64,000 nucleotides of DNA from Mayamaea pseudoterrestris. Taxonomy: Eukaryota > Bacillariophyta > Bacillariophyceae > Sellaphorales > Sellaphoraceae. Below are positions 37,376 through 64,000 of this stretch, piece by piece. The translations under genes and the position numbers were made by a program. The DNA is taken from the NCBI GenBank assembly GCA_027923505.1, contig BROI01000011.1, positions 806,001 through 870,000 on the forward strand, written 5' to 3'. How positions within the stretch are numbered: position 1 is the first letter of the stretch; every line of letters starts with the position of its first letter. Below the pieces are notes generated by a model. It was not told where the DNA came from, made no database searches, and worked only from the letters and a program-made list of their open reading frames with translations.

Positions 37376-37377
37376 CA

Positions 37378-37384
37378 TTTTTTG
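37378..37384 (+). terminator. Pol III T-run terminator of tRNA-Met
   Basis: Seven consecutive T starting three bases after the discriminator base. Absent after the left tRNA copy. Confidence 0.8.
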
Positions 37385-37493
37385 CTTTTTAATTTCATTT
37401 GTTTTTAAATCACAATTAGCATTAAAATTTAGTACTGTATATGATAGCTTCAAGATCACTGTGATTTGCATGACTAATGGTAAAATTTTTTGT
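37385..37493. other. AT-rich spacer between tRNA-Met and the satellite array
   Basis: 109 bp, visibly AT-rich (runs such as TTTTTAATTTCATTTG and TAAAATTTTTTG), unlike the roughly 51% GC of the satellite. It ends abruptly at the first monomer (CTTGCTGTAG, 37,494). Nothing else recognised. Confidence 0.7.
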
Positions 37494-40440
37494 CTTGCTG
37501 TAGGGGCGTTTGAATGTCATGGCATCTGCGGGCTGAGACTGGTGACAAGTAGTCACCAAATACATTGCCATCCCCTGAGAGACCCGCCAAGCCTACCATG
37601 TTGTAGCGCAGCCGGAATAATGATGTTGGCACCGTTCTGGTGTAATTTGGGCACCTACAGGGCTTGCTGTAGGGGCGTTTGAATGTCATGGCATCTGCGG
37701 GCTGAGACTGGTGACAAGTTGTCACCAAATACATTGCCATCCCCTGAGACACCAGCCAAGCCTACCATCTTGTAGTGCAGCTGGAATAACAATGTTGGCA
37801 TCATTCTGGTGTAATTTGAGCACCTACAGGGCTTGCTGTAGGGGCGTTTGAATGTCATGGCATCTGCGGGCTGAGACTGGTGACAAGTTGTCACCAAATA
37901 CATTGCCACCCCCTGAGACACCAGCCAAGCCTACCATCTTGTAGCGCAGCCTGAATTATGATGTTGGCACCATTCTGGTGTAATTTGGGCACCTACAGGG
38001 CTTGCTGTAGGGGCGTTTGAATGTCATGGCATCTGCGGGCTGAGACTGGTGACAAGTTGTCACCAAATACATTGCCATCCCCTGAGACACCAGCCAAGCC
38101 TACCATCTTGTAGCGCAGCCGGAATAATGATGTTGGCACCATTCTGGTGTAATTTGGGCACCTACAGGGCTTGCTGTCGGGGCGTTTGAATGTCATGGCA
38201 TCTGCGGGCTGAGACTGGTGACAAGTTGTCACCAAATACATTGCCATCCCCTGAGACACCAGCCAAGCCTACCATCTTGTAGCGCAGCCTGAAAAATGAT
38301 GTTGGCACCATAGATATTGAATTTGGGCTCCTACAGGGCTTGCTGTAGGGGCGTTTATATATCATGGCATCTGCGGGCTGAGACTGGTGACAAGTTGTCA
38401 CCAAATACATTGCCATCCCCTGAGACACCAGCCAAGCCTACCATCTTGTAGCGCAGCCTGAATAATGATGTTGGCACCATTCTGGTGTAATTTGGGCACC
38501 TACAGGGCTTGCTGTAGGGGCGTTTGAATGTCATGGCATCTGCAGGGTGAGACTGGTGACTAGTTGTCACCAAATACATTGCCATCCCCTGAGACACCAG
38601 CCAAGCCTACCATCTTGTAGCGCAGCCTGAATAATGATGTTGGCACCATTCTGGTGTAATTTGGGCACCTACAGGGCTTGCTGTAGGGGCGTTTGAATGT
38701 CATGGCATCTGCGGGCTGAGACTGGTGACAAGTTGTCACCAAATACATTGCCATCCCCTGAGACACCAGCCAAGCCTACCATCTTGTAGCGCAGCTGGAA
38801 ATAATGATGTTGGCACCATTCTGGTGTAATTTGGGCACCTACAGGGCTTGCTGTAGGGGCGTTTGAATGTCATGGCATCTGTGGGCTGAGACTGGTGACA
38901 AGTTGTCACCAAATACATTGCCATCCCCTGAGACACCAGCCAAGCCTACCATCTTGTAGCGCAGCCTGAAAAATGATGTTGGCACCATTCTGGTGTAATT
39001 TGGGCACCTACAGGGCTTGCTGTAGGGGCGTTTGAATGTCATGGCATCTGCAGGCTGAGACTGGTGACAAGTTGTCACCAAATACATTGCCATCCCCTGA
39101 GACACCATCCAAGCCTACCATCTTGTAGCGCAGCCTGAATAATGATGTTGGCACCATTCTGGTGCATTTTGGGCACCTACAGGGCTTGCTATAGGGGCAT
39201 TTGAATGTCATTCATCAGCGGGCTGAGACTGGTGACAAGTTGTCAGCAACTACATCACCACCCCTGAGACACCAGCCAAGCCTACCATCTTGTAGCGCAG
39301 CCTGAATAATGATGTTGGCACCATTCTGGTGTATTTTGGGCACCTACAGGGCTTGCTGTAGGGGCGTTTGAATGTCATGGCATCTGCGGGCTGAGACTGG
39401 TGACAAGTTGTCACCAAATACATTGCCATCCCCTGAGACACCAGCCAAGCCTACCATCTTGTAGCGCAGCCTGAATAATGATGTTGGCACCATTCTGGTG
39501 TAATTTGGGCACCTACAGGGCTTGCTGTAGGGGCGTTTGAATGTCATGGCATCTGCGGGCTGAGACTGGTGACAAGTTGTCACCAAATACATTGCCATCC
39601 CCTGAGACACCAGCCAAGCCTACCATCTTGTAGCGCAGCTGGAATAACGATGTTGGCACCATTCTGGTGTAATTTGAGCACCTACAGGGCTTGCTGTAGG
39701 GGCGTTTGAATGTCATGGCATCTGCGGGCTGAGACTGGTGACAAGTTGTCACCAAATACATTGCCATCCCCTGAGACACCAGCCAAGCCTACCATCTTGT
39801 AGCGCAGCCTGAAAAATGATGTTGGCACCATTCTGGTGTAATTTGGGCACCTACAGGGCTTGCTGTAGGGGCGTTTGAATGTCATGGCATCTGCGGGCTG
39901 AGACTGGTGACAAGTTGTCACCAAATACATTGCCATCCCCTGAGACACCAGCCAAGCCTACCATCTTGTAGCGCAGCCTGAATAATGATGTTGGCACCAT
40001 TCTGGTGTAATTTGGGCACCTACAGGGCTTGCTGTAGGGGCGTTTGAATGTCATGGCATCTGCGGGCTGAGACTGGTGACAAGTTGTCACCAAATACATT
40101 GCCATCCCCTGAGACACCAGCCAAGCCTACCATCTTGTAGCGCAGCTGGAAATAATGATGTTGGCACCATTCTGGTGTAATTTGGGCACCTACAGGGCTT
40201 GCTGTATGGGCGTTTGAATGTCATGGCATCTGCGGGCTGAGACTGGTGACAAGTTGTCACCAAATACATTGCCATCCCCTGAGACACCAGCCAAGCCTAC
40301 CATCTTGTAGCGCAGCCTGAAAAATGATGTTGGCACCATTCTGGTGTAATTTGGGCACCTACAGGGCTTGCTGTAGGGGCGTTTGAATGTCATGGCATCT
40401 GCGGGCTGAGACTGGTGACAAGTTGTCACCAAATACATTG

Positions 40441-40466
40441 CCACCCCCCCAGTCGCAACTATCCAC
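40441..40466 (+). repeat. Satellite monomer with about 20-bp insertion
   Basis: ATTGCCACC is followed by CCCCCAGTCGCAACTATCCA before CCCTGAGACACC resumes. The inserted bases do not match the monomer. Confidence 0.75.
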
Positions 40467-43400
40467 CCTGAGACACCAGCCAAGCCTACCATCTTGTAGT
40501 GCAGCCTGAATAATGATGTTGGCACCATTCTGGTGTAATTTGGGCACCTACAGGGCTTGCTGTAGGGGCGTTTGAATGTCATGGCATCTGCGGGCTGAGA
40601 CTGGTGACAAGTTGTCACCAAATACATTGCCATCCCCTGAGACACCAGCCAAGCCTACCATCTTGTAGCGCAGCCTGAATAATGATGTTGGCACCATTCT
40701 GGTGTAATTTGGGCACCTACAGGGCTTGCTGAAGGGGCGTTTGAATGTCATGGCATCTGCGGGCTGAGACTGGTGACAAGTTGTCACCAAATACATTGCC
40801 ATCCCCTGAGACACCAGCCAAGCCTACCATCTTGTAGCGCAGCCTGAATAATGATGTTGGCACCATTCTGGTGTAATTTGGGCACCTACAGGGCTTGCTG
40901 TAGGGGCGTTTGAATGTCATGGCATCTGCGGGCTGAGACTGGTGACAAGTTGTCACCAAATACATTGCCATCCCCTGAGACACCAGCCAAGCCTACCATG
41001 TTGTAGCGCAGCCTGAATAATGATGTTGGCACCATTCTGGTGTAATTTGGGCACCTACAGGGCTTGCTGTAGGGGCGTTTGAATGTCATGGCATCTGCGG
41101 GCTGAGACTGGTGACAAGTTGTCACCAAATACATTGCCATCCCCTGAGACACCAGCCAAGCCTACCATCTTGTAGCGCAGCCTGAATAATGATGTTGGCA
41201 CCATTCTGGTGTAATTTGGGCACCTACAGGGCTTGCTGTAGGGGCGTTTGAATGTCATGGCATCTGCGGGCTGAGACTGGTGACAAGTTGTCACCAAATA
41301 CATTGCCATCCCCTGAGACACCAGCCAAGCCTACCATCTTGTAGCGCAGCCTGAATAATGATGTTGGCACCATTCTGGTGTAATTTGGGCACCTACAGGG
41401 CTTGCTGTAGGGGCGTTTGAATGTCATGGCATCTGCGGGCTGAGACTGGTGACAAGTTGTCACCAAATACATTGCCATCCCCTGAGACACCAGCCAAGCC
41501 TACCATCTTGTAGCGCAGCCTGAAAAATGATGTTGGCACCATTCTGGTGTAATTTGGGCACCTACAGGGCTTGCTGTAGGGGCGTTTGAATGTCATGGCA
41601 TCTGCGGGCTGAGACTGGTGACAAGTTGTCACCAAATACATTGCCATCCCCTGAGACACCAGCCAAGCCTACCATGTTGTAGCGCAGCCTGAATAATGAT
41701 GTTGGCACCATTCTGGTGTAATTTGGGCACCTACAGGGCTTGCTGTAGGGGCGTTTGAATGTCATGGCATCTGCGGGCTGAGACTGGTGACAAGTTGTCA
41801 CCAAATACATTGCCATCCCCTGAGACACCAGCCAAGCCTACCATCTTGTAGCGCAGCCTGAATAATGATGTTGGCACCATTCTGGTGTAATTTGGGCACC
41901 TACAGGGCTTGCTGTAGGGGCGTTTGAATGTCATGGCATCTGCGGGCTGAGACTGGTGACAAGTTGTCACCAAATACATTGCCATCCCCTGAGACACCAG
42001 CCAAGCCTACCATCTTGTAGCGCAGCCTGAATAATGATGTTGGCACCATTCTGGTGTAATTTGGGCACCTACAGGGCTTGCTGTAGGGGCGTTTGAATGT
42101 CATGGCATCTGCGGGCTGAGACTGGTGACAAGTTGTCACCAAATACATTGCCATCCCCTGAGACACCAGCCAAGCCTACCATCTTGTAGCGCAGCCTGAA
42201 TAATGATGTTGGCACCATTCTGGTGTAATTTGGGCACCTACAGGGCTTGCTGTAGGGGCGTTTGAATGTCATGGCATCTGCGGGCTGAGACTGGTGACAA
42301 GTTGTCACCAAATACATTGCCATCCCCTGAGACACCAGCCAAGCCTACCATCTTGTAGCGCAGCCTGAATAATGATGTTGGCACCATTCTGGTGTAATTT
42401 GGGCACCTACAGGGCCTGCTGTAGGGGCGTTTGAATGTCATGGCATCTGCGGGCTGAGACTGGTGACAAGTTGTCACCAAATACATTGCCATCCCCTGAG
42501 ACACCAGCCAAGCCTACCATCTTGTAGCGCAGCCTGAATAATGATGTTGGCACCATTCTGGTGTAATTTGGGCACCTACAGGGCTTGCTGTAGGGGCGTT
42601 TGAATGTCATGGCATCTGCGGGCTGAGACTGGTGACAAGTTGTCACCAAATACATTGCCATCCCCTGAGACACCAGCCAAGCCTACCATCTTGTAGCGCA
42701 GCCTGAATAATGATGTTGGCACCATTCTGGTGTAATTTGGGCACCTACAGGGCTTGCTGTAGGGGCGTTTGAATGTCATGGCATCTGCGGGCTGAGACTG
42801 GTGACAAGTTGTCACCAAATACATTGCCATCCCCTGAGACACCAGCCAAGCCTACCATCTTGTAGCGCAGCCTGAATAATGATGTTGGCACCATTCTGGT
42901 GTAATTTGGGCACCTACAGGGCTTGCTGTAGGGGCGTTTGAATGTCATGGCATCTGCGGGCTGAGACTGGTGACAAGTTGTCACCAAATACATTGCCATC
43001 CCCTGAGACACCAGCCAAGCCTACCATCTTGTAGCGCAGCCTGAATAATGATGTTGGCACCATTCTGGTGTAATTTGGGCACCTACAGGGCTTGCTGTAG
43101 GGGCGTTTGAATGTCATGGCATCTGCGGGCTGAGACTGGTGACAAGTTGTCACCAAATACATTGCCATCCCCTGAGACACCAGCCAAGCCTACCATCTTG
43201 TAGCGCAGCCTGAATAATGATGTTGGCACCATTCTGGTGTAATTTGGGCACCTACAGGGCTTGCTGTAAGGGCGTTTGAATGTCATGGCATCTGCGGGCT
43301 GAGACTGGTGACAAGTTGTCACCAAATACATTGCCATCCCCTGAGACACCAGCCAAGCCTACCATCTTGTAGCGCAGCCTGAATAATGATGTTGGCACCA

Positions 43401-46400
43401 TTCTGGTGTAATTTGGGCACCTACAGGGCTTGCTGTAGGGGCGTTTGAATGTCATGGCATCTGCGGGCTGAGACTGGTGACAAGTTGTCACCAAATACAT
43501 TGCCATCCCCTGAGACACCAGCCAAGCCTACCATCTTGTAGCGCAGTCTGAATAATGATGTTGGCACCATTCTGGTGTAATTTGGGCACCTACAGGGCTT
43601 GCTGTAGGGGCGTTTGAATGTCATGGCATCTGCGGGCTGAGACTGGTGACAAGTTGTCACCAAATACATTGCCATCCCCTGAGACACCAGCCAAGCCTAC
43701 CATCTTGTAGCGCAGCCTGAATAATGATGTTGGCACCATTCTGGTGTAATTTGGGCACCTACAGGGCTTGCTGTAGGGGCGTTTGAATGTCATGGCATCT
43801 GCGGGCTGAGACTGGTGACAAGTTGTCACCAAATACATTGCCATCCCCTGAGACACCAGCCAAGCCTACCATCTTGTAGCGCAGCCTGAATAATGATGTT
43901 GGCACCATTCTGGTGTAATTTGGGCACCTACAGGGCTTGCTGTAGGGGCGTTTGAATGTCATGGCATCTGCGGGCTGAGACTGGTGACAAGTTGTCACCA
44001 AATACATTGCCATCCCCTGAGACACCAGCCAAGCCTACCATCTTGTAGCGCAGCCTGGAATAACGATGTTGGCACCATTCTGGTGTAATTTGGGCACCTA
44101 CAGGGCTTGCTGTAGGGGCGTTTGAATGTCATGGCATCTGCGGGCTGAGACTGGTGACAAGTTGTCACCAAATACATTGCCATCCCCTGAGACACCAGCC
44201 AAGCCTACCATCTTGTAGCGCAGCAGGAATAATGATGTTGGCACCATTCTGGTGTAATTTGGTCACCTACGGGGCTTGCTGTAGGGGCGTTTGAATGTCA
44301 CGGCATCTGCGGGCTGAGACTGGTGACAAGTTGTCACCAAATACATTGCCATCCCCTGAGACACCAGCCAAGCCTACCATCTTGTAGCGCAGCCTGAATA
44401 ATGATGTTGGCACCATTCTGGTGTAATTTGGGCACCTACAGGGCTTGCTGTAGGGGCGTTTGAATGTCATGGCATCTGCGGGCTGAGACTGGTGACAAGT
44501 TGTCACCAAATACATTGCCATCCCCTGAGACACCAGCCAAGCCTACCATCTTGTAGCGCAGCCTGAATAATGATGTTGGCACCATTCTGGTGTAATTTGG
44601 GCACCTACAGGGCTTGCTGTAGGGGCGTTTGAATGTCATGGCATCTGCGGGCTGAGACTGGTGACAAGTTGTCACCAAATACATTGCCATCCCCTGAGAC
44701 ACCAGCCAAGCCTACCATCTTGTAGCGCAGCCTGAATAATGATGTTGGCACCATTCTGGTGTAATTTGGGCACCTACAGGGCTTGCTGTAGGGGCGTTTG
44801 AATGTCATGGCATCTGCGGGCTGAGACTGGTGACAAGTTGTCACCAAATACATTGCCATCCCCTGAGACACCAGCCAAGCCTACCATCTTGTAGCGCAGC
44901 CTGAATAATGATGTTGGCACCATTCTGGTGTAATTTGGGCACCTACAGGGCTTGCTGTAGGGGCGTTTGAATGTCATGGCATCTGCGGGCTGAGACTGGT
45001 GACAAGTTGTCACCAAATACATTGCCATCCCCTGAGACACCAGCCAAGCCTACCATCTTGTAGCGCAGCCTGAATAATGATGTTGGCACCATTCTGGTGT
45101 AATTTGGGCACCTACAGGGCTTGCTGTAGGGGCGTTTGAATGTCATGGCATCTGCGGGCTGAGACTGGTGACAAGTTGTCACCAAATACATTGCCATCCC
45201 CTGAGACACCAGCCAAGCCTACCATCTTGTAGCGCAGCCTGAATAATGATGTTGGCACCATTCTGGTGTAATTTGGGCACCTACAGGGCTTGCTGTAGGG
45301 GCGTTTGAATGTCATGGCATCTGCGGGCTGAGACTGGTGACAAGTTGTCACCAAATACATTGCCATCCCCTGAGACACCAGCCAAGCCTACCATCTTGTA
45401 GCGCAGCCTGAATAATGATGTTGGCGCCATTCTGGTGTAATTTGGGGCCCTACAGGGCTTGCTGTAGGGGCGTTTAAATGTCATGGCATCTGCGGGCTGA
45501 GACTGGTGACAAGTTGTCACCAAATACATTGCCATCCCCTGAGACACCAGCCAAGCCTACCATCTTGTAGTGCAGCCTGAATAATGATGTTGGCACCATT
45601 CTGGTGTAATTTGGGCACCTACAGGGCTTGCTGTAGGGGCGTTTGAATGTCATGGCATCTGCGGGCTGAGACTGGTGACAAGTTGTCACCAAATACATTG
45701 CCATCCCCTGAGACACCAGCCAAGCCTACCATCTTGTAGCGCAGCCTGAATAATGATGTTGGCACCATTCTGGTGTAATTTGGGCACCTACAGGGCTTGC
45801 TATAGGGGCGTTTGAATGTCATGGCATCTGCGGCCTGAGACTGGTGACAAGTTGTCACCAAATACATTGCCATCCCCTGAGACACCAGCCAAGCCTACCA
45901 TCTTGTAGCGCAGCCGGAATAATGATGTTGGCACCATTCTGGTGTAATTTGGGCACCTACAGGGCTTGCTGTAGGGGCGTTTGAATGTCATGGCATCTGC
46001 GGGCTGAGACTGGTGACAAGTTGTCACCAAATACATTGCCATCCCCTGAGACACCAGCCAAGCTTACCATCTTGTAGTGCAGCCTGAATAATGATGTTGG
46101 CACCATTCTGGTGTATTTTGGGCTCCTACAGGGCTAGCTGTAGGGGCGTTTGAATGTCATGGCATCTGCGGGCTGAGACTGGTGACAAGTTGTCACCAAA
46201 TACATTGCATCCTGAGACACCACCAAGCCTACCATCTTGTAGCGCAGCCTGAATGATGTATGTTGGCACCATTCTGGTGTAATTTGGGCACCTACAGGGC
46301 TTGCTGTAGGGGCGTTTGAATGTCATGGCATCTGCCGGGCTGAGACGTGACAAGTTGTCACCAAATACATTGCCATCCCCTGAGACACCAGCCAAGCCTA

Positions 46401-47974
46401 CCATCTTGTAGCGCAGCCTGAATAATGATGTTGGCACCATTCTGGTGTAATTTGGGCACCTACAGGGCTTGCTGTAGGGGCGTTTGAATGTCATGGCATC
46501 TGCGGGCTGAGACTGGTGACAAGTTGTCACCAAATACATTGCCATCCCCTGAGACACCAGCCAAGCCTACCATCTTGTAGCGCAGCCTGAATAATGATGT
46601 TGGCACCATTCTGGTGTAATTTGGGCACCTACAGGGCTTGCTGTAGGGGCGTTTGAATGTCATGGCATCTGCGGGCTGAGACTGGTGACAAGTTGTCACC
46701 AAATACATTGCCATCCCCTGAGACACCAGCCAAGCCTACCATCTTGTAGCGCAGCCGGAATAATGATGTTGGCACCATTCTGGTGTAATTTGGGCACCTA
46801 CAGGGCTTGCTGTAGGGGCGTTTGAATGTCATGGCATCTGCGGCCTGGGCTGGTGACAAGTTGTCACCAAATACATTGCCATCCCCTGAGACACCAGCCA
46901 AGCCTACCATCTTGTAGCGCAGCCTGAATAATGATGTTGGCACCATTCTGGTGTAATTTGGGCACCTACAGGGCTTGCTGTAGGGGCGTTTGAATGTCAT
47001 GGCATCTGCGGGCTGAGACTGGTGACAAGTTGTCACCAAATACATTGCCATCCCCTGAGACACCAGCCAAGCCTACCATCTTGTAGCGCAGCCTGAATAA
47101 TGATGTTGGCACCATTCTGGTGTAATTTGGGCACCTACAGGGCTTGCTGTAGGGGCGTTTGAATGTCATGGCATCTGCGGGCTGAGACTGGTGACAAGTT
47201 GTCACCAAATACATTGCCATCCCCTGAGACACCAGCCAAGCCTACCATCTTGTAGCGCAGCCTGAATAATGATGTTGGCACCATTCTGGTGTAATTTGGG
47301 CACCTACAGGGCTTGCTGTAGGGGCGTTTGAATGTCATGGCATCTGCGGGCTGAGACTGGTGACAAGTTGTCACCAAATACATTGCCATCCCCTGAGACA
47401 CCAGCCAAGCCTACCATCTTGTAGCGCAGCCTGAATAATGATGTTGGCACCATTCTGGTGTAATTTGGGCACCTACAGGGCTTGCTGTAGGGCGTTTGAA
47501 TGTCATGGCATCTGCGGGCTGAGACTGGTGACAAGTTGTCACCAAATACATTGCCATCCCCTGAGACACCAGCCAAGCCTACCATCTTGTAGCGCAGCCG
47601 GAATAATGATGTTGGCACCATTCTGGTGTAATTTGGGCACCTACAGGGCTTGCTGTAGGGGCGTTTGAATGTCATGGCATCTGCGGGCTGAGACTGGTGA
47701 CAAGTTGTCACCAAATACATTGCCATCCCCTGAGACACCAGCCAAGCCTACCATCTTGTAGTGCAGCCTGAATAATGATGTTGGCACCATTCTGGTGTAA
47801 TTTGGGCACCTACAGGGCTTGCTGTCAGGGCGTTTGAATGTCATGGCATCTGCGGGCTGAGACTGGTGACAAGTTGTCACCAAATACATTGCCATCCCCT
47901 GAGACACCAGCCAAGCCTACCATCTTGTAGCGCAGCCTGAATAATGATGTTGGCACCATTCTGGTGTAATTTGG

Positions 47975-48060
47975 GCACCTACAGGGTTTAGCGGAAGGCG
48001 TTGAATGGCACTCTGGCGTCTGCGTCTGAGACGACAAGCTGTCACCAAATACATTGCCAT
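47975..48060 (+). repeat. Degenerate satellite monomer segment
   Basis: Within an otherwise regular stretch, one unit reads CAGGGTTTAGCGGAAGGCG then TTGAATGGCACTCTGGCGTC, and the dyad is decayed to ACGACAAGCTGTCACC. The neighbouring unit at about 48,228-48,270 also carries several small indels. Confidence 0.75.
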
Positions 48061-51000
48061 CCCCTGAGACACCAGCCAAGCCTACCATCTTGTAGTGCAG
48101 CCTGAATAATGATGTTGGCACCATTCTGGTGTAATTTGGGCACCTACAGGGCTTGCTGTAGGGCGTTTGAATGTCATGGCATCTGCGGGCTGAGACTGGT
48201 GACAAGTTGTCACCAAATACATTGCCATCCCTGAGACACCAGCAAGCCCATACCTCTTGTAGAGCCTCAATAATGATGTTGGCACCATTCTGGTGTAATT
48301 TGGGCACCTACAGGGCTTGCTGTAGGGGCGTTTGAATGTCATGGCATCTGCGGGCTGAGACTGGTGACAAGTTGTCACCAAATACATTGCCATCCCCTGA
48401 GACACCAGCCAAGCCTACCATCTTGTAGCGCAGCCTGAATAATGATGTTGGCACCATTCTGGTGTAATTTGGGCACCTACAGGGCTTGCTGTAGGGGCGT
48501 TTGAATGTCATGGCATCTGCGGGCTGAGACTGGTGACAAGTTGTCACCAAAAACATTGCCATCCCCTGAGACACCAACCAAGCCTACCATCTTGTAGCGC
48601 AGCCTGAGTAATGATGTTGGTACCATTCTGGTGTAATTAGGGCACTTACAGGCCTTGCTGTAGGTGCGTTTTGAATGTCATGGCATCTGCGGGCTGAGAC
48701 TGGTGACAAGTTGTCACCAAATACATTGCCATCCCCTGAGACACCCGCCAAGCCAACCATGTTGTAGCGCAGCCAGAATAATGATGTTGGCACCATTCTG
48801 GTGTAATTTGGGCACCTACAGGGCTTGCTGTAGGGGCGTTTGAATGTCATGGCATCTGCGGGCTGAGACTGGTGACAAGTTGTCACCAAATACATTGCCA
48901 TCCCCTGAGACACCAGCCAAGCCTACCATCTTGTAGCGCAGCCTGAATAATGATGTTGGCACCATTCTGGTGTAATTTGGGCACCTACAGGGCTTGCTGT
49001 AGGGGCGTTTGAATGTCATGGCATCTGCGGGCTGAGACTGGTGACAAGTTGTCACCAAATACATTGCCATCCCCTGAGACACCAGCCAAGCCTACCATCT
49101 TGTAGCGCAGCCTGAATAATGATGTTGGCACCATTCTGGTGTAATTTGGGCACCTACAGGGCTTGCTGTAGGGGCGTTTGAATGTCATGGCATCTGCGGG
49201 CTGAGACTGGTGACAAGTTGTCACCAAATACATTGCCATCCCCTGAGACACCAGCCAAGCCTACCATCTTGTAGCGCAGCCTGAATAATGATGTTGGCGC
49301 CATTCTGGTGTAATTTGGGCACCTACAGGGCTTGCTGTAGGGGCGTTTGAATGTCATGGCATCTGCGGGCTGAGACTGGTGACAAGTTGTCACCAAATAC
49401 ATTGCCATCCCCTGAGACACCAGCCAAGCCTACCATCTTGTAGCGCAGCTGAAATAATGATGTTGGCACCATTCTGGTGTAATTTGGGCACCTACAGGGC
49501 TTGCTGTAGGGGCGTTTGAATGTCATGGCATCTGCGGGCTGAGACTGGTGACATGTTGTCACCAAATACATTGCCATCCCCTGAGACACCAGCCAAGCCA
49601 TCCCTGTTGTAGCGCAGCCTGAATAAGGATGTCGGCACTCTTCTGGTGTAATTTGGGCTTCTACAGGGCTTGCTGTAGGGGCGTTTGAATGTCATGGCAT
49701 CTGCGGGCTGAGATTGGTGACAAGTTGTCACCAAATACATTGCCATCCCCTGAGACACCAGCCAAGCCTACCATCTTGTAGCGCAGCCTGAATAATGATG
49801 TTGGCACCATTCTGGTGTAATTTGGGCACCTACAGGGCTTGCTGTAGGGCCGTTTGAATGTCATGGCATCTGCGGGCTGAGACTGGTGACAAGTTGTCAC
49901 CAAATACATTGCCATCCCCTGAGACACCAGCCAAGCCTACCATCTTGTAGCGCAGCCTGAATAATGATGTTGGCACCATTCTGGTGTAATTTGGGCACCT
50001 ACAGGGCTTGCTGTAGGGGCGTTTGAATGTCATGGCATCTGCGGGCTGAGACTGGTGACAAGTTGTCACCAAATACATTGCCATCCCCTGAGACACCAGC
50101 CAATCCTACCATCTTGTAGCGCAGCCTGAAAAATGATGTTGGCACCATTCTGGTGTAATTTGGGCACCTACAGGGCCTGATGTAGGGGTTTTTTGAATGT
50201 CGTGGCATCTGCGGGCTGAGACTTGTGACAAGTTGTCACCAAATACATTGCCATCCCCTGAGACACCAGCCAAGCCTACCATCTTGTAGCGCAGCCTGAA
50301 AAATGATGTTGGCACCATTCTGGTGTAATTTGGGCACCTACAGGGCTTGCTGTAGGGGCGTTTGAATGTCATGGCATCTGCGGGCTGAGACTGGTGACAA
50401 GTTGTCACCAAATACATTGCCATCCCCTGAGACACCAGCCAAGCCTACCATCTTGTAGCGCAGCCTGAATAATGATGTTGGCACCATTCTGGTGTAATTT
50501 GGGCACCTACAGGGCTTGCTGTAGGGGGTTTGAATGTCATGGCATCTGCGGGCTGAGACTGGTGACAAGTTGTCACCAAATACATTGCCATCCCCTGAGA
50601 CACCAGCCAAGCCTACCATCTTGTAGCGCAGCCTGAATAATGATGTTGGCACCATTCTGGTGTAATTTGGGCACCTACAGGGCTTGCTGTAGGGGCGTTT
50701 GAATGTCATGGCATCTGCGGGCTGAGACTGGTGACAAGTTGTCACCAAATACATTGCCATCCCCTGAGACACCAGCCAAGCCTACCATCTTGTAGCGCAG
50801 CCTGAATAATGATGTTGGCACCATTCTGGTGTAATTTGGGCACCTACAGGGCTTGCTGTAGGGGCGTTTGAATGTCATGGCATCTGCGGGCTGAGACTGG
50901 TGACAAGTTGTCACCAAATACATTGCCATCCCCCTGAAACACCAGCCAAGCCTACCATCTTGTAGCGCAGCCTGAATAATGATGTTGGCACCATTCTGGT

Positions 51001-52814: not shown

Positions 52815-52980
52815 CCATCTTGTAGCGCCAGCCGAATAATATCACATTCTGATGTTGGCACCACAGGGCTTCTGGTGTCATGGTCTGGTGGTGACAAGGT
52901 CACCTACACCCCGGACACCAGCCTACCATGTAGCGCAGCGTGATGTCACCATTCTGGTGCATCTGCGGGCGACTGAGACT
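52815..52980 (+). repeat. Scrambled satellite monomer
   Basis: About 165 bp made of shuffled satellite words: TGATGTTGGCACCACAGGGC, CTTCTGGTGTCATGG, GGTGACAAGGTCACC, ACACCAGCCTACCATGTAGC, and then CATCTGCGGGCGACTGAGAC before the normal phase resumes. The dyad is also rearranged here. Confidence 0.8.
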
Positions 52981-54198
52981 GGTGACAAGTTGTCACCAAA
53001 TACATTGCCATCCCCTGAGACACCAGCCAAGCCTACCATCTTGTAGCGCAGCCTGAATAATGATGTTGGCACCATTCTGGTGTAATTTGGGCACCTACAG
53101 GGCTTGCTGTAGGGGCGTTTGAATGTCATGGCATCTGCGGGCTGAGACTGGTGACAAGTTGTCACCAAATACATTGCCATCCCCTGAGACACCAGCCAAG
53201 CCTACCATCTTGTAGCGCAGCCTGAATAATGATGTTGGCACCATTCTGGTGTAATTTGGGCACCTACAGGGCTTGCTGTAGGGGCGTTTGAATGTCATGG
53301 CATCTGCGGGCTGAGACTGGTGACAAGTTGTCACCAAATACATTGCCATCCCCTGAGACACCAGCCAAGCCTACCATCTTGTAGCGCAGCCTGAATAATG
53401 ATGTTGGCACCATTCTGGTGTAATTTGGGCACCTACAGGGCTTGCTGTAGGGGCGTTTGAATGTCATGGCATCTGCGGGCTGAGACTGGTGACAAGTTGT
53501 CACCAAATACATTGCCATCCCCTGAGACACCAGCCAAGCCTACCATCTTGTAGCGCAGCCTGAATAATGATGTTGGCACCATTCTGGTGTAATTTGGGCA
53601 CCTACAGGGCTTGCTGTAGGGCGTTTGAATGGCATGGCATCTGCGGGCTGAGACTGGTGACAAGTTGTCACCAAATACATTGCCATCCCCTGAGACACCA
53701 GCCAAGCCTACCATCTTGTAGCGCAGCCTGAGTAATGATGTTGGCACCATTCTGGTGTAATTTGGGCAACTACAGGGCTTGCTAACTGGTGACAAGTTGT
53801 CACCAAATACATTGCCATCCCCTGAGACACCAGCCAAGCCTACCATCTTGTAGCGCAGCCGGAATAATGATGTTGGCACCATTCTGGTGTAATTTGGGCA
53901 CCTACAGGGCTTGCTGTAGGGGCGTTTGAATGTCATGGCATCTGCGGGCTGAGACTGGTGACAAGTTGTCACCAAATACATTGCCATCCCCTGAGACACC
54001 AGCCAAGCCTACCATCTTGTAGCGCAGCCTGAATAATGATGTTGGCACCATTCTGGTGTAATTTGGGCACCTACAGGGCTTGCTGTAGGGGCGTTTGAAT
54101 GTCATGGCATCTGCGGGCTGAGACTGGTGACAAGTTGTCACCAAATACATTGCCATCCCCTGAGACACCAGCCAAGCCTACCATCTTGTAGCGCAGCC

Positions 54199-54238
54199 TC
54201 CAGCGAAAGTACCAAATACATGAACACCACTTGAGATG
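54199..54238 (+). repeat. Satellite monomer with a replaced 40-bp segment
   Basis: After CGCAGCCT the expected GAATAAT is replaced by about 38 bp including CAGCGAAAGTACCAAATACA and TGAACACCACTTGA before GATGTTGGCACC resumes. Part of it (ACCAAATACAT) is a satellite word from elsewhere in the unit. Confidence 0.75.
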
Positions 54239-57200
54239 TTGGCACCATTCTGGTGTAATTTGGGCACCTACAGGGCTTGCTGTAGGGGCGTTTGAATGTC
54301 ATGGCATCTGCGGGCTGAGACTGGTGACAAGTTGTCACCAAATACATTGCCATCCCCTGAGACACCAGCCAAGCCTACCATCTTGTAGCGCAGCCTGAAT
54401 AATGATGTTGGCACCATTCTGGTGTAATTTGGGCACCTACAGGGCTTGCTGTAGGGGCGTTTGAATGTCATGGCATCTGCGGGCTGAGACTGGTGACAAG
54501 TTGTCACCAAATACATTGCCATCCCCTGAGACACCAGCCAAGCCTACCATCTTGTAGCGCAGCCTGAAAAATGATGTTGGCACCATTCTGGTGTAATTTG
54601 GGCACCTACAGGGCTTGCTGTAGGGGCGTTTGAATGTCATGGCATCTGCGGGCTGAGACTGGTGACAAGTTGTCACCAAATACATTGCCATCCCCTGAGA
54701 CACCAGCCAAGCCTACCATCTTGTAGCGCAGCCTGAATAATGATGTTGGCACCATTCTGGTGTAATTTGGGCACCTACAGGGCTTGCTGTAGGGGCGTTT
54801 GAATGTCATGGCATCTGCGGGCTGAGACTGGTGACAAGTTGTCACCAAATACATTGCCATCCCCTGAGACACCAGCCAAGCCTACCATCTTGTAGCGCAG
54901 CCTGAATAATGATGTTGGCACCATTCTGGTGTAATTTGGGCACCTACAGGGCTTGCTGTAGGGGCGTTTGAATGTCATGGCATCTGCGGGCTGAGACTGG
55001 TGACAAGTTGTCACCAAATACATTGCCATCCCCTGAGACACCAGCCAAGCCTACCATCTTGTAGCGCAGCCTGAATAATGATGTTGGCACCATTCTGGTG
55101 TAATTTGGGCACCTACAGGGCTTGCTGTAGGGGCGTTTGAATGTCATGGCATCTGCGGGCTGAGACTGGTGACAAGTTGTCACCAAATACATTGCCATCC
55201 CCTGAGACAGCAGCCACGCCTACCATCTTGTAGCGCAGCGTGTAAAACTCTGTGGGCACCATTCTGGTGTAATTTGGGCACCTACAGGGCTTGCTGTAGG
55301 GGCGTTTGAATGTCATGGCATCTGCGGGCTGAGACTGGTGACAAGTTGTCACCAAATACATTGCCATCCCCTGAGACACCAGCCAAGCCTACCATCTTGT
55401 AGTGCAGCCTGAATAATGATGTTGGCACCATTCTGGTGTAATTTGGGCACCTACAGGGCTTGCTGTAGGGGCGTTTGAATGTCATGGCATCTGCAGGCTG
55501 AGACTGGTGACAAGTTGTCACCAAATACATTGCCATCCCCTGAGACACCAGCCAAGCCTACCATCTTGTAGCGCAGCCGGAATAATGATGTTGGCACCAT
55601 TCTGGTGTAATTTGGGCACCTACAGGGCTTGCTGTAGGGGCGTTTGAATGTCATGGCATCTGCGGGCTGAGACTGGTGACAAGTTGTCACCAAATACATT
55701 GCCATCCCCTGAGACACCAGCCAAGCCTACCATCTTGTAGCGCAGCCGGAATAACGATGTTGGCACCATTCTGGTGTAATTTGGGCACCTACAGGGCTTG
55801 CTGTAGGGGCGTTTGAATGTCATGGCATCTGCGGGCTGAGACTGGTGACAAGTTGTCACCAAATACATTGCCATCCCCTGAGACACCAGCCAAGCCTACC
55901 ATCTTGTAGCGCAGCCTGAAAAATGATGTTGGCACCATTCTGGTGTAATTTGGGCACCTACAGGGCTTGCTGTAGGGGCGTTTGAATGTCATGGCATCTG
56001 CGGGCTGAGACTGGTGACAAGTTGTCACCAAATACATTGCCATCCCCTGAGACACCAGCCAAGCCTACCATCTTGTAGCGCAGCCGGAATAATGATGTTG
56101 GCACCATTCTGGTGTAATTTGGGCACCTACAGGGCTTGCTGTAGGGGCGTTTGAATGTCATGGCATCTGCGGGCTGAGACTGGTGACAAGTTGTCACCAA
56201 ATACATTGCCATCCCCTGAGACACCAGCCAAGCCTACCATGTTGTAGTGCAGCCTGAATAATGATGTTGGCACCATTCTGGTGTAATTTGGGCACCTACA
56301 GGGCTTGCTGTAGGGGCGTTTGAATGTCATGGCATCTGCGGGCTGAGACTGGTGACAAGTTGTCACCAAATACATTGCCATCCCCTGAGACACCAGCCAA
56401 GCCTACCATCTTGTAGCGCAGCCTGAATAATGATGTTGGCACCATTCTGGTGTAATTTGGGCACCTACAGGGCTTGCTGTAGGGGCGTTTGAATGTCATG
56501 GCATCTGTGGGCTGAGACTGGTGACAAGTTGTCACCAAATACATTGCCATCCCCTGAGACACCAGCCAAGCCTACCATGCTGTAGTGCAGCCGGCAAAAT
56601 GATGTTGGCGCAATTCTGGTGTAATTTGGGCACCTACAGGGCTTGCTGTCGGGGCGTTTGAATGTCATGGCATCTGCGGGCTGAGACTGGTGACAAGTTG
56701 TCACCAAATACATTGCCATCCCCTGAGACACCAGCCAAGCCTACCATCTTGTAGCGCAGCCTGAATAATGATGTTGGCACCATTCTGGTGTAATTTGGGC
56801 ACCTACAGGGCTTGCTGTAGGGGCGTTTGAATGTCATGGCATCTGCGGGCTGAGACTGGTGACAAGTTGTCACCAAATACATTGCCATCCCCTGAGACAC
56901 CAGCCAAGCCTACCATCTTGTAGTGCAGCCTGAATAATGATGTTGGCACCATTCTGGTGTAATTTGGGCACCTACAGGGCTTGCTGTAGGGGCGTTTGAA
57001 TGTCATGGCATCTGCGGGCTGAGACTGGTGACAAGTTGTCACCAAATACATTGCCATCCCCTGAGACACCAGCCAAGCCTACCATCTTGTAGCGCAGCCT
57101 GAATAATGATGTTGGCACCATTCTGGTGTAATTTGGGCACCTACAGGGCTTGCTGTAGGGGCGTTTGAATGTCATGGCATCTGCGGGCTGAGACTGGTGA

Positions 57201-57569
57201 CAAGTTGTCACCAAATACATTGCCATCCCCTGAGACACCAGCCAAGCCTACCATCTTGTAGCGCAGCCTGAATAATGATGTTGGCACCATTCTGGTGTAA
57301 TTTGGGCACCTACAGGGCTTGCTGTAGGGGCGTTTGAATGTCATGGCATCTGCGGGCTGAGACTGGTGACAAGTTGTCACCAAATACATTGCCATCCCCT
57401 GAGACACCAGCCAAGCCTACCATCTTGTAGCGCAGGCTGAATAATGATGTTGGCACCATTCTGGTGTAATTTGGGCACCTACAGGGCTTGCTGTAGGGGC
57501 GTTTGAATGTCATGGCATCTGCGGGCTGAGACTGGTGACAAGTTGTCACCAAATACATTGCCATCCCCG

Positions 57570-60500
57570 GAGACACCAGCCAAGCCTACCATCTTGTAGC
57601 GCAGCCTGAATAATGATGTTGGCACCATTCTGGTGTAATTTGGGCACCTACAGGGCTTGCTGTAGGGGCGTTTGAATGTCATGGCATCTGCGGGCTGAGA
57701 CTGGTGACAAGTTGTCACCAAATACATTGCCATCCCCTGAGACACCAGCCAAGCCTACCATGTTGTAGCGCAGCCTGAATAATGATGTTGGCACCATTCT
57801 GGTGTAATTTGGGCACCTACAGGGCTTGCTGTAGGGGCGTTTGAATGTCATGGCATCTGCGGGCTGAGACTGGTGACAAGTTGTCACCAAATACATTGCC
57901 ATCCCCTGAGACACCAGCCAAGCCTACCATCTTGTAGCGCAGCCGGAATAATGATGTTGGCACCATTCTGGTGTAATTTGGGCACCTACAGGGCTTGCTG
58001 TAGGGGCGTTTGAATGTCATGGCATCTGCGGGCTGAGACTGGTGACAAGTTGTCACCAAATACATTGCCATCCCCTGAGACACCAGCCAAGCCTACCATG
58101 TTGTAGTGCAGCCTGGAAAATGATGTTGGCACCATTCTGGTGTAATTTGGGCACCTACAGGGCTTGCTGTAGGGGCGTTTGAATGTCATGGCATCTGCGG
58201 GCTGAGACTGGTGACAAGTTGTCACCAAATACATTGCCATCCCCTGAGACACCAGCCAAGCCTACCATGTTGTAGTGCAGCCTGAATAATGATGTTGGCA
58301 CCATTCTGGTGTAATTTGGGCACCTACAGGGCTTGCTGTAGGGGCGTTTGAATGTCATGGCATCTGCGGGCTGAGACTGGTGACAAGTTGTCACCAAATA
58401 CATTGCCACCCCCAGCCTGAATAATGATGTTGGCACCATTCTGGTGTAATTTGGGCACCTACAGGGCTTGCTGTAGGGGCGTTTGAATGTCATGGCATCT
58501 GCGGGCTGAGACTGGTGACAAGTTGTCACCAAATACATTGCCATCCCCTGAGACACCAGCCAAGCCTACCATCTTGTAGTGCAGCCTGAATAATGATGTT
58601 GGCACCATTCTGGTGTAATTTGGGCACCTACAGGGCTTGCTGTAGGGGCGTTTGAATGTCATGGCATCTGCGGGCTGAGACTGGTGACAAGTTGTCACCA
58701 AATACATTGCCATCCCCTGAGACACCAGCCAAGCCTACCATCTTGTAGTGCAGCCTGAATAATGATGTTGGCACCATTCTGGTGTAATTTGGGCACCTAC
58801 AGGGCTTGCTGTAGGGGCGTTTGAATGTCATGGCATCTGCGGGCTGAGACTGGTGACAAGTTGTCACCAAATACATTGCCATCCCCTGAGACACCAGCCA
58901 AGCCTACCATCTTGTAGCGCAGCCTGAATAATGATGTTGGCACCATTCTGGTGTAATTTGGGCACCTACAGGGCTTGCTGTAGGGGCGTTTGAATGTCAT
59001 GGCATCTGCGGGCTGAGACTGGTGACAAGTTGTCACCAAATACATTGCCATCCCCTGAGACACCAGCCAAGCCTACCATCTTGTAGTGCAGCCTGAAAAA
59101 TGATGTTGGCACCATTCTGGTGTAATTTGGGCACCTACAGGGCTTGCTGTAGGGGCGTTTGAATGTCATGGCATCTGCGGGCTGAGACTGGTGACAAGTT
59201 GTCACCAAATACATTGCCATCCCCTGAGACACCAGCCAAGCCTACCATCTTGTAGCGCAGCCGGAAAAATGATGTTGGCACCATTCTGGTGTAATTTGGG
59301 CACCTACAGGGCTTGCTGTAGGGGCGTTTGAATGTCATGGCATCTGCGGGCTGAGACTGGTGACAAGTTGTCACCAAATACATTGCCATCCCCTGAGACA
59401 CCAGCCAAGCCTACCATGTTGTAGCGCAGCCTGAAAAATGATGTTGGCACCATTCTGGTGTAATTTGGGCACCTACAGGGCTTGCTGTAGGGGCGTTTGA
59501 ATGTCATGGCATCTGCGGGCTGAGACTGGTGACAAGTTGTCACCAAATACATTGCCATCCCCTGAGACACCAGCCAAGCCTACCATCTTGTAGCGCAGCC
59601 TGAATAATGATGTTGGCACCATTCTGGTGTAATTTGGGCACCTACAGGGCTTGCTGTAGGGGCGTTTGAATGTCATGGCATCTGCGGGCTGAGACTGGTG
59701 ACAAGTTGTCACCAAATACATTGCCATCCCCTGAGACACCAGCCAAGCCTACCATCTTGTAGCGCAGCTGGAATAACGATGTTGGCACCATTCTGGTGTA
59801 ATTTGGGCACCTACAGGGCTTGCTGTAGGGGCGTTTGAATGTCATGGCATCTGCGGGCTGAGACTGGTGACAAGTTGTCACCAAATACATTGCCATCCCC
59901 TGAGACACCAGCCAAGCCTACCATGTTGTAGTGCAGCCTGAAAAATGATGTTGGCACCATTCTGGTGTAATTTGGGCACCTACAGGGCTTGCTGTAGGGG
60001 CGTTTGAATGTCATGGCATCTCGGGCTGAGACTGGTGACAAGTTGTCACCAAATACATTGCCATCCCCTGAGACACCAGCCAAGCCTACCATCTTGTAGC
60101 GCAGCCTGAATAATGATGTTGGCACCATTCTGGTGTAATTTGGGCACCTACAGGGCTTGCTGTAGGGGCGTTTGAATGTCATGGCATCTAGGGCGCCAAA
60201 GGCTCGGCTGAGACTGGTGACAAGTTGTCACCAAATACATTGCCATCCCCTGAGACACCAGCCAAGCCTACCATCTTGTAGTGCAGCCGGAATAATGATG
60301 TTGGCACCATTCTGGTGTAATTTGGGCACCTACAGGGCTTGCTGTAGGGGCGTTTGAATGTCATGGCATCTGCGGGCTGAGACTGGTGACAAGTTGTCAC
60401 CAAATACATTGCCATCCCCTGAGACACCAGCCAAGCCTACCATCTTGTAGCGCAGCCTGAATAATGATGTTGGCACCATTCTGGTGTAATTTGGGCACCT

Positions 60501-60630
60501 ACAGGGCTTGCTGTAGGGGCGTTTGAATGTCATGGCATCTGCGGGCTGAGACTGGTGACAAGTTGTCACCAAATACATTGCCATCCCCTGAGACACCAGC
60601 CAAGCCTACCATGTTGTAGTGCAGCCTGAA
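57570..60630 (+). repeat. About 18-monomer block, first copy of a 3.06-kb tandem duplication within the satellite
   Basis: The ordered set of variant monomers here recurs in the same order in the next block: GTTGTAGTG units, a TGGAATAACG unit, a TCTCGGGCTG unit, and a unit with the insertion TAGGGCGCCAAAGGCTC at 60,189. The offset is 3,061 bp at the left and 3,090 bp after about 58,410, where this copy lacks 29 bp. It ends at a hybrid junction, CCTGAA|GAGACACC, at 60,630/60,631. Confidence 0.85.
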
Positions 60631-63600
60631 GAGACACCAGCCAAGCCTACCATCTTGTAGCGCAGCCTGAATAATGATGTTGGCACCATTCTGGTGTAAT
60701 TTGGGCACCTACAGGGCTTGCTGTAGGGGCGTTTGAATGTCATGGCATCTGCGGGCTGAGACTGGTGACAAGTTGTCACCAAATACATTGCCATCCCCTG
60801 AGACACCAGCCAAGCCTACCATGTTGTAGCGCAGCCTGAATAATGATGTTGGCACCATTCTGGTGTAATTTGGGCACCTACAGGGCTTGCTGTAGGGGCG
60901 TTTGAATGTCATGGCATCTGCGGGCTGAGACTGGTGACAAGTTGTCACCAAATACATTGCCATCCCCTGAGACACCAGCCAAGCCTACCATCTTGTAGCG
61001 CAGCCGGAATAATGATGTTGGCACCATTCTGGTGTAATTTGGGCACCTACAGGGCTTGCTGTAGGGGCGTTTGAATGTCATGGCATCTGCGGGCTGAGAC
61101 TGGTGACAAGTTGTCACCAAATACATTGCCATCCCCTGAGACACCAGCCAAGCCTACCATGTTGTAGTGCAGCCTGGAAAATGATGTTGGCACCATTCTG
61201 GTGTAATTTGGGCACCTACAGGGCTTGCTGTAGGGGCGTTTGAATGTCATGGCATCTGCGGGCTGAGACTGGTGACAAGTTGTCACCAAATACATTGCCA
61301 TCCCCTGAGACACCAGCCAAGCCTACCATGTTGTAGTGCAGCCTGAATAATGATGTTGGCACCATTCTGGTGTAATTTGGGCACCTACAGGGCTTGCTGT
61401 AGGGGCGTTTGAATGTCATGGCATCTGCGGGCTGAGACTGGTGACAAGTTGTCACCAAATACATTGCCACCCCTGAGACACCAGCCAAGCCTACCAGTAG
61501 TGCAGCCTGAATAATGATGTTGGCACCATTCTGGTGTAATTTGGGCACCTACAGGGCTTGCTGTAGGGGCGTTTGAATGTCATGGCATCTGCGGGCTGAG
61601 ACTGGTGACAAGTTGTCACCAAATACATTGCCATCCCCTGAGACACCAGCCAAGCCTACCATCTTGTAGTGCAGCCTGAATAATGATGTTGGCACCATTC
61701 TGGTGTAATTTGGGCACCTACAGGGCTTGCTGTAGGGGCGTTTGAATGTCATGGCATCTGCGGGCTGAGACTGGTGACAAGTTGTCACCAAATACATTGC
61801 CATCCCCTGAGACACCAGCCAAGCCTACCATCTTGTAGTGCAGCCTGAATAATGATGTTGGCACCATTCTGGTGTAATTTGGGCACCTACAGGGCTTGCT
61901 GTAGGGGCGTTTGAATGTCATGGCATCTGCGGGCTGAGACTGGTGACAAGTTGTCACCAAATACATTGCCATCCCCTGAGACACCAGCCAAGCCTACCAT
62001 CTTGTAGCGCAGCCTGAATAATGATGTTGGCACCATTCTGGTGTAATTTGGGCACCTACAGGGCTTGCTGTAGGGGCGTTTGAATGTCATGGCATCTGCG
62101 GGCTGAGACTGGTGACAAGTTGTCACCAAATACATTGCCATCCCCTGAGACACCAGCCAAGCCTACCATCTTGTAGTGCAGCCTGAAAAATGATGTTGGC
62201 ACCATTCTGGTGTAATTTGGGCACCTACAGGGCTTGCTGTAGGGGCGTTTGAATGTCATGGCATCTGCGGGCTGAGACTGGTGACAAGTTGTCACCAAAT
62301 ACATTGCCATCCCCTGAGACACCAGCCAAGCCTACCATCTTGTAGCGCAGCCGGAAAAATGATGTTGGCACCATTCTGGTGTAATTTGGGCACCTACAGG
62401 GCTTGCTGTAGGGGCGTTTGAATGTCATGGCATCTGCGGGCTGAGACTGGTGACAAGTTGTCACCAAATACATTGCCATCCCCTGAGACACCAGCCAAGC
62501 CTACCATGTTGTAGCGCAGCCTGAAAAATGATGTTGGCACCATTCTGGTGTAATTTGGGCACCTACAGGGCTTGCTGTAGGGGCGTTTGAATGTCATGGC
62601 ATCTGCGGGCTGAGACTGGTGACAAGTTGTCACCAAATACATTGCCATCCCCTGAGACACCAGCCAAGCCTACCATCTTGTAGCGCAGCCTGAATAATGA
62701 TGTTGGCACCATTCTGGTGTAATTTGGGCACCTACAGGGCTTGCTGTAGGGGCGTTTGAATGTCATGGCATCTGCGGGCTGAGACTGGTGACAAGTTGTC
62801 ACCAAATACATTGCCATCCCCTGAGACACCAGCCAAGCCTACCATCTTGTAGCGCAGCTGGAATAACGATGTTGGCACCATTCTGGTGTAATTTGGGCAC
62901 CTACAGGGCTTGCTGTAGGGGCGTTTGAATGTCATGGCATCTGCGGGCTGAGACTGGTGACAAGTTGTCACCAAATACATTGCCATCCCCTGAGACACCA
63001 GCCAAGCCTACCATGTTGTAGTGCAGCCTGAAAAATGATGTTGGCACCATTCTGGTGTAATTTGGGCACCTACAGGGCTTGCTGTAGGGGCGTTTGAATG
63101 TCATGGCATCTCGGGCTGAGACTGGTGACAAGTTGTCACCAAATACATTGCCATCCCCTGAGACACCAGCCAAGCCTACCATCTTGTAGCGCAGCCTGAA
63201 TAATGATGTTGGCACCATTCTGGTGTAATTTGGGCACCTACAGGGCTTGCTGTAGGGGCGTTTGAATGTCATGGCATCTAGGGCGCCAAAGGCTCGGCTG
63301 AGACTGGTGACAAGTTGTCACCAAATACATTGCCATCCCCTGAGACACCAGCCAAGCCTACCATCTTGTAGTGCAGCCGGAATAATGATGTTGGCACCAT
63401 TCTGGTGTAATTTGGGCACCTACAGGGCTTGCTGTAGGGGCGTTTGAATGTCATGGCATCTGCGGGCTGAGACTGGTGACAAGTTGTCACCAAATACATT
63501 GCCATCCCCTGAGACACCAGCCAAGCCTACCATCTTGTAGCGCAGCCTGAATAATGATGTTGGCACCATTCTGGTGTAATTTGGGCACCTACAGGGCTTG

Positions 63601-63720
63601 CTGTAGGGGCGTTTGAATGTCATGGCATCTGCGGGCTGAGACTGGTGACAAGTTGTCACCAAATACATTGCCATCCCCTGAGACACCAGCCAAGCCTACC
63701 ATGTTGTAGTGCAGCCTGAA
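60631..63720 (+). repeat. Second copy of the 3.06-3.09-kb satellite block
   Basis: By eye, matches 57,570-60,630 unit for unit, including the diagnostic insertion (63,279) and variant monomers. The only length difference I see is the extra 29 bp at about 61,470-61,500. After 63,720 the array continues normally, where the first copy instead shows the junction. Confidence 0.85.
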
Positions 63721-64000
63721 TAATGATGTTGGCACCATTCTGGTGTAATTTGGGCACCTACAGGGCTTGCTGTAGGGGCGTTTGAATGTCATGGCATCTG
63801 TGTGCTGAGACTGGTGACAAGTTGTCACCAAATACATTGCCATCCCCTGAGACACCAGTCAAGCTACCATGTTGTAGTGCAGCCTGAAAAATGATGTTGG
63901 CACCATTCTGGTGTAATTTGGGCACCTACAGGGCTTGCTGTAGGGGCGTTTGAATGTCATGGCATCTGCGGGCTGAGACTGGTGACAAGTTGTCACCAAA

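Follow-up and report, generated by a model that had tools for sequence, protein, structure and literature searches.

The question that this locus raises is whether the long tandem array in the right-hand part of the window (the whole stretch of 64,000 nucleotides analysed here, C11:806001-870000) is a centromere, a subtelomeric satellite or interstitial heterochromatin, the three options that the initial annotation had left side by side. The array, which we term Sat169, occupies positions 37494..64000 on the plus strand and runs on beyond the window. Tandem Repeats Finder (TRF) reports it as one array of period 169 with 156.4 copies and a score of 37491, and a profile search recovers 158 unit matches in the window, all 158 on the plus strand. 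Units start at 37494, 37663 and 37832, and the second of them (37663..37831) is used below as the example unit. Among the 151 full-length units in the window, 121 are exactly 169 bp long and 47 are identical to the consensus, with a mean identity to the consensus of 98.8% and a mean pairwise identity of 97.8% over 400 sampled pairs. The core word of the unit, allowing up to two mismatches, has 156 sites in the window and none outside the array. The initial description of a homogeneous, nucleosome-length satellite of about 157 same-orientation and often identical units, left open at the window end, is thus borne out in each of these respects. The right edge of the array was located in a neighboring stretch at L009:6978, or about C11:876985, and the array is therefore about 33.5 kb long. 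It is internal to its contig, C11, which measures 1,042,727 bp in a genome assembly of 30,627,229 bp in 41 contigs. With homogeneous, head-to-tail long arrays and a high genome-wide copy number, Sat169 has two of the features that define a satellite.

Across most of the window array there is no higher-order repeat, apart from one exact duplication in which a 2,094-bp block of units at 58413..60506 recurs, by alignment, at 61503..63596, both on the plus strand; two other blocks of the same array are 97.9% alike. Odd-length units are present in the arrays, as seen from unit starts and TRF periods, and dimeric registers of 338 bp occur in C6, C12 and C23. Because identical units, odd-length units and the exact 2,094-bp duplication occur together, unequal exchange is indicated as the process by which each array would grow, shrink and become homogenized. 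The approximately 10-bp periodicity associated with nucleosomes is not significant in the unit, being reached by 27% of shuffles. Rfam gives no match inside the window array at E values up to 1, and a derivation of the unit from an RNA gene was rejected, the only Rfam matches being two tRNA-Met genes that both lie outside the array. Four minus-strand frames of 151-188 codons span several units in the window.

The unit carries a 19-bp palindrome, TGGTGACAAGTTGTCACCA, at unit positions 47-65 (37709..37727 in the example unit), which has 150 exact copies in the window. It consists of 9-bp arms about one base, an arm length reached in one of 300 shuffles of the unit. Its conservation was measured on 593 units, which are the distinct ones among the aligned full-length units of each stretch, drawn from the 792 full-length ones among 887 matches with the 95 partial matches excluded. 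In this set the palindrome is 99.1% conserved and the remainder of the unit 95.7%; it is intact in 532 units and is one of the two best-conserved 19-bp windows. With CpG sites excluded it ranks first, and the remainder of the unit is then at 96.0%. None of 20,000 permutations of sites matched its conservation, a result that overstates the certainty because the units are related by descent and the sites were treated as independent. The palindrome is better conserved than the remainder of the unit in all 17 stretches (14 loci), with a rank that varies in single stretches from 1 to 80 of the 169 windows, and it ranks 95 in the nine most decayed units. This conservation pattern supports the palindrome being under constraint. 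Most likely it would act as a site for a dimeric satellite-binding protein, or as a cruciform aiding the packaging or pairing of arrays.

The host had been described as probably a diatom, and we find this very probable: the genome has 10 matches to the silicon transporter domain PF03842, nine of them above the cut-off, and the named relatives noted for an actin-related protein of the window, among the best 120 of 482 matches, are diatoms. Among the matches listed, these include Phaeodactylum tricornutum (51%), Seminavis (49%) and Epithemia (51%), with metagenomic relatives reaching 76%. At C1:2970661-2974680 three silicon transporter domains lie within one unbroken frame of 1,445 codons.

Genome-wide, the 19-bp core has 8,799 forward sites when up to two mismatches are allowed, and a reversed control word has none. 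The 8,775 reverse-strand sites were taken as the same units because the core word is nearly palindromic. About 8,800 units correspond to about 4.9% of the genome. To locate them we sampled sites with the unit, a diverged unit, the first exact matches, the 82 contig-end stretches and rare variants of the palindrome (four sets of 35, 19, 16 and 37 sites); the unit and diverged-unit searches entered as representative places of the matches listed, and the locus totals are lower bounds. With merging at 20 kb there are at least 86 loci on 33 of the 41 contigs, and 24 contigs carry two or more; merging at 10 kb gives 94 loci and at 40 kb 82. Capture-recapture estimates range from 82 to 254, varying with the samples and the merging, and as the samples are not independent we claim only at least 86 loci. 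Eight contigs, summing to 3.0 Mb, are without Sat169 among the sampled sites, again at lower-bound sampling. Longer contigs carry more of the at least 86 loci (Spearman 0.50), and the loci appear clumped, with a dispersion of about 2.4 under this lower-bound sampling. Sat169 occurs in both orientations, and opposite units lie side by side at C1 2716-2722 kb. A 31-base word of Sat169 has no exact match in viral contigs.

Tandem arrays are difficult to assemble, and Sat169 forms the end of some contigs, as might be expected if repeats had been misjoined into many contigs; such an assembly artefact is nonetheless highly unlikely, given that flanking DNA, unit variants, orientation and register vary from array to array, and that the C11 array is crossed in the assembly with unique DNA on either side. 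Confinement to a single chromosome, which would have spoken against a centromere, does not apply to a family found on 33 contigs, and the proposed count of arrays per chromosome turned out contrary to one array each. One centromere per chromosome is therefore rejected as a description of the family, its loci being many. A monocentric arrangement could still hold if a single Sat169 array on each chromosome, perhaps a long one, were the centromere and the others its inert relatives. Array sizes do differ, and the long C11 array or the contig-end arrays would be the candidates. Sat169 is present in 12 of the 82 contig-end stretches against about four expected, and therefore the longest arrays may be unassembled; these 12 include C24, which has Sat169 within its last 500 bases and itself terminates in an LTR-like element. 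Moreover, Copia elements flank some arrays, and Copia-like elements mark oomycete centromeres according to the available part of one report (PMC7082073). Against this, no one array per contig stands out among the sampled loci, the 303-kb contig C30 having at least seven loci and C1 and C10 at least six each, and housekeeping-type genes lie a few kilobases from the window array. Measured in 500-bp steps, the array also has a G+C content of 50-54% and differs in this from the AT-rich centromeres of Phaeodactylum: its minimum of 49.8% is far from the threshold of about 32% or less over at least 500 bp that we took from the accessible text of PMC4976089. Thus we regard a monocentric satellite centromere as unlikely. 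A centromere of the Phaeodactylum type was not seen in the 331 kb analysed, about 1% of the genome, where no 500-bp stretch fell below 37.6% G+C, and one may lie elsewhere in the genome.

The surroundings of the array are genic on both sides. To its left lie 26 of the 30 listed window frames (at least 150 codons, many overlapping); five of these were tested, of which one is without a domain and the others carry caspase-like, epimerase, actin and exocyst Sec5 domains. The three frames tested on the right have NYN, Nup84/Nup107-type and CAND1-like domains. A tRNA-Met gene with an intron (37281..37376, plus strand) is placed 117 bp upstream of the array, and the intervening AT-rich stretch (37377..37476), which directly precedes the array, has 24% G+C, the least of any 100-bp window in the 331 kb analysed. 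A 461-bp segment including the tRNA-Met gene is duplicated at 98.3% identity in the window (36913-37373 and 32888-33348), one copy stopping about 0.1 kb short of the array, and a short tandem array at 33571-33909 has a period of 146 (2.3 copies, 94% matches). Arrays sited at tRNA genes were considered and rejected, as there is no tRNA in the 14 stretches at other edges or on the right side here.

We examined 17 array edges, comprising the left side in the window and the edges in stretches L009-L025 and L087. Seven of them, in L012, L017, L019, L020, L022 and on both sides in L024, have another tandem family as immediate neighbor or at most about 0.25 kb away, and these neighbors are themselves nucleosome-length satellites. 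Five others adjoin Copia-type DNA (L013, L023, L087, L025 and L018). An LTR-like element of about 380 bp directly abuts Sat169 in L013 (L013:4483-4864), L023 (L023:7755-8118) and L087 (L087:133-500), and a diverged relative of it (77%) lies in the window at 36008..36394 on the plus strand. In L025 a Copia reverse transcriptase domain is encoded in a frame 4.5 kb from the array, and the Copia fragment beside Sat169 in L018 was recognized by eye. L013 was taken as Copia on its relatives, 8 of 19 of which carry PF07727; Pfam scans of the Copia-like frames in L013, L023 and L018 returned no domain. The remaining five edges (the window, L009, L016, the left side of L018, and L021) adjoin unique or genic DNA. 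Five further loci, picked from the sampled sites, all contain arrays, one of them complete at 4.3 kb (L120) and the others at least 4.2-6.6 kb long. All but one of the five have a frame of 383-757 codons about 0.1-0.8 kb from the array, and one of these frames encodes an M3 peptidase. From the edge survey and these five loci it follows that some arrays belong to satellite islands and others lie directly between genes. Fixed ends, as expected of an inserted element, were rejected, since the edges fall at many unit phases. No match between the Sat169 unit and the Copia-type flanks of the examined loci was detected at E 1e-3, and no carrier element or dispersal mechanism was found around the examined arrays. 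At its end the LTR-like element reads ACTTGTCA (TGACAAGT on the opposite strand), eight bases that equal half of the Sat169 palindrome; this correspondence was noticed by eye and may be due to chance.

Clustering of the tandem repeats in the DNA analysed yielded nine families. In eight of them the unit measures about 145-182 bp, and in the ninth it is 347-380 bp long and consists of two half-units. A 29-bp stretch is common to two of the families, and three are represented by arrays that are short or poorly matched, with two to three copies. The dyad of family E has 13-bp arms (reached in none of 300 shuffles) and the same center, ACAAGTTGT, as the Sat169 palindrome, and that of family I is 8 bp (three of 300 shuffles). 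The other six of the nine families show no significant dyad, a point that counts against the overall interpretation proposed below. In family E (L022:8614-9971 and L020:2990-3676) each half-unit carries a long palindrome centered on or near ACAAGTTGT. This motif is present in families A, B and E, and in A and E it forms the center of the long palindrome; as a common motif it is only a lead because 54 of 300 shuffled sets (18%) share a 9-mer in three or more families.

A second satellite, SatB, has a unit of 172-181 bp and 3,226 core sites amounting to about 1.9% of the genome. It is found in 9 of the 82 contig-end stretches (the starts of C4, C9, C11, C17, C20 and C30 and the ends of C10, C18 and C31), is present in L017 and L024, and in places lies some kilobases from Sat169 (C1:605-608 kb versus 617-626 kb, and C1:1245 kb). 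A dense minisatellite with short units like GGTACCCTCAT occupies the start of C18 (C18:1-500, L043). Telomere repeats were seen at only one of the 82 contig ends, the start of C11 (L036, C11:1-500), where they are followed by SatB and not by Sat169. The Sat169 array begins 843 kb into this contig; its other end, 166 kb from the array, is without a telomere, and that distance is to the contig end and not necessarily to the chromosome end. The placement next to a telomere that had been raised as an option, and as a ground for doubting a centromere, accordingly finds no counterpart here, and a subtelomeric satellite was rejected, as the lone telomere-bearing contig end leads into SatB. A variant in which subtelomeric Sat169 was moved inward by chromosome fusion or misassembly might draw on an interstitial match of four telomere repeats in the Sat169-rich contig C30 (C30:219806-219829, 83 kb from the contig end). 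However, SatB rather than Sat169 follows the C11 telomere and lies at one side of eight more contigs (C4, C9, C10, C17, C18, C20, C30 and C31), SatB being also internal to contigs, and we find this variant barely credible.

Taken together, these observations lead us to propose that Sat169 is probably a dispersed interstitial satellite, homogenized by unequal exchange and with one constrained site, and is not the single centromere of each chromosome. Interstitial heterochromatin is thus the best fit among the three original options, interstitial by position and putatively heterochromatic. Arrays would have been seeded at many sites, often between genes, through ectopic exchange or the reinsertion of repeat circles. 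Sat169, SatB, the other tandem families and Copia-type elements are located together in islands, which from this company are probably heterochromatic, although many arrays sit among genes, and some could still be centromeric.

A rival reading is a repeat-based holocentromere or polycentromere, in which CENH3 would be loaded on many dispersed Sat169 arrays per chromosome and the palindrome would help to specify them. The presence of many arrays of a nucleosome-length unit, spread over 33 of the 41 contigs, and the greater number of loci on longer contigs are consistent with this. So is the resemblance to Tyba of the beak-sedges (Rhynchospora), whose arrays of 20-25 kb are dispersed along the chromosomes among genes in the available portion of that report (PMC10048060), compared with about 33.5 kb for the window array. 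The conserved palindrome also has a parallel in Luzula sylvatica, where CENH3-bearing Lusy1 arrays are richer in dyad symmetries, as given in part of the source (PMC11538461). On the other hand, the sampled loci appear clumped, and the only array outside C11 for which both ends and nearby genes were seen is 4.3 kb long (L120). According to the same excerpt, 457 of 704 Lusy1 and 845 of 952 Lusy2 arrays are without CENH3, small arrays mostly among them, and those bearing it are far longer, functional Lusy1 arrays measuring 189 kb and the others 20 kb on average (PMC11538461). Phaeodactylum, in the portions of the literature at hand, has a single short AT-rich centromere per chromosome, and no paper on holocentric diatom chromosomes stood out among the matches listed from the open-licence literature. 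Because most Luzula arrays are without CENH3, and because a monocentric oyster, in what is available of its description, has dispersed satellites as well, we treat the holocentromere as a testable possibility and not a conclusion, and consider it decidedly unlikely. Two genes resembling histone H3, both diverged and apparently containing introns, in L112 (C5:929 kb) and L113 (C13:19 kb), are candidate H3 variants; they were picked by eye from 10 of 20 histone-fold places, and neither is assignable to CENH3.

To our knowledge, the known diatom centromeres are the short AT-rich ones of Phaeodactylum, and Sat169, if centromeric, would be the first known satellite-based centromere in diatoms. A holocentric or polycentric Sat169 centromere would be remarkable, and it is a long shot that such a many-site, CENH3-bearing centromere has its near-invariant palindrome bound by a dedicated protein, as an analogue of the CENP-B box that evolved independently. 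A tandem-repeat share for a diatom is already in print, 7.72% of the genome in Skeletonema tropicum as stated in the accessible part of that source, and among the matches listed from open-licence papers, preprints excluded, none described a diatom satellite family in detail. The present diatom genome of 30.6 Mb, with about 5% in one nucleosome-length satellite and about 2% in a second, offers a compact system for studying what leads satellites to adopt nucleosome length, by what route they spread between genes, and whether proteins are recruited by a palindromic box.

Several known systems share some of these features. The CENP-B box is a short conserved binding site in the nucleosome-length alpha satellite of primates and contains TTCG. 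The Sat169 palindrome is likewise a short site better conserved than the rest of a nucleosome-length unit, but it has another sequence, the unit is without TTCG or CGAA, and its role as a binding site is putative. The Tyba unit is 172 bp long, and Tyba and Sat169 are alike in having nucleosome-length units in many arrays of up to tens of kilobases along the chromosomes; as far as the available text goes, Tyba is CENH3-bearing and evenly spaced, whereas the Sat169 loci look clumped and their loading with CENH3 is hypothetical. In Luzula sylvatica, Lusy1 (124 bp) and Lusy2 (174/175 bp) constitute 25% and 7% of the genome according to the excerpted report (PMC11538461). They share with Sat169 the dispersed arrays, the dyad symmetries and the presence of several satellite families, but are far more abundant, and their CENH3-bearing arrays are much longer than the measured Sat169 arrays. 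Among stramenopiles, the oomycete Phytophthora parasitica has the satellites PpSat1 (337 bp) and PpSat2 (143 bp), the latter in gene-rich regions as is Sat169 in places; their 513 and 440 copies contrast with about 8,800 Sat169 units, and a conserved palindrome is not mentioned in the available part of that report (PMC7290008). Phaeodactylum tricornutum is also a diatom, and the accessible portions of three reports (PMC9266582, PMC7082073, PMC4976089) describe one short low-G+C region per chromosome as its centromere; Sat169 differs from these in forming repetitive arrays of 50-54% G+C.
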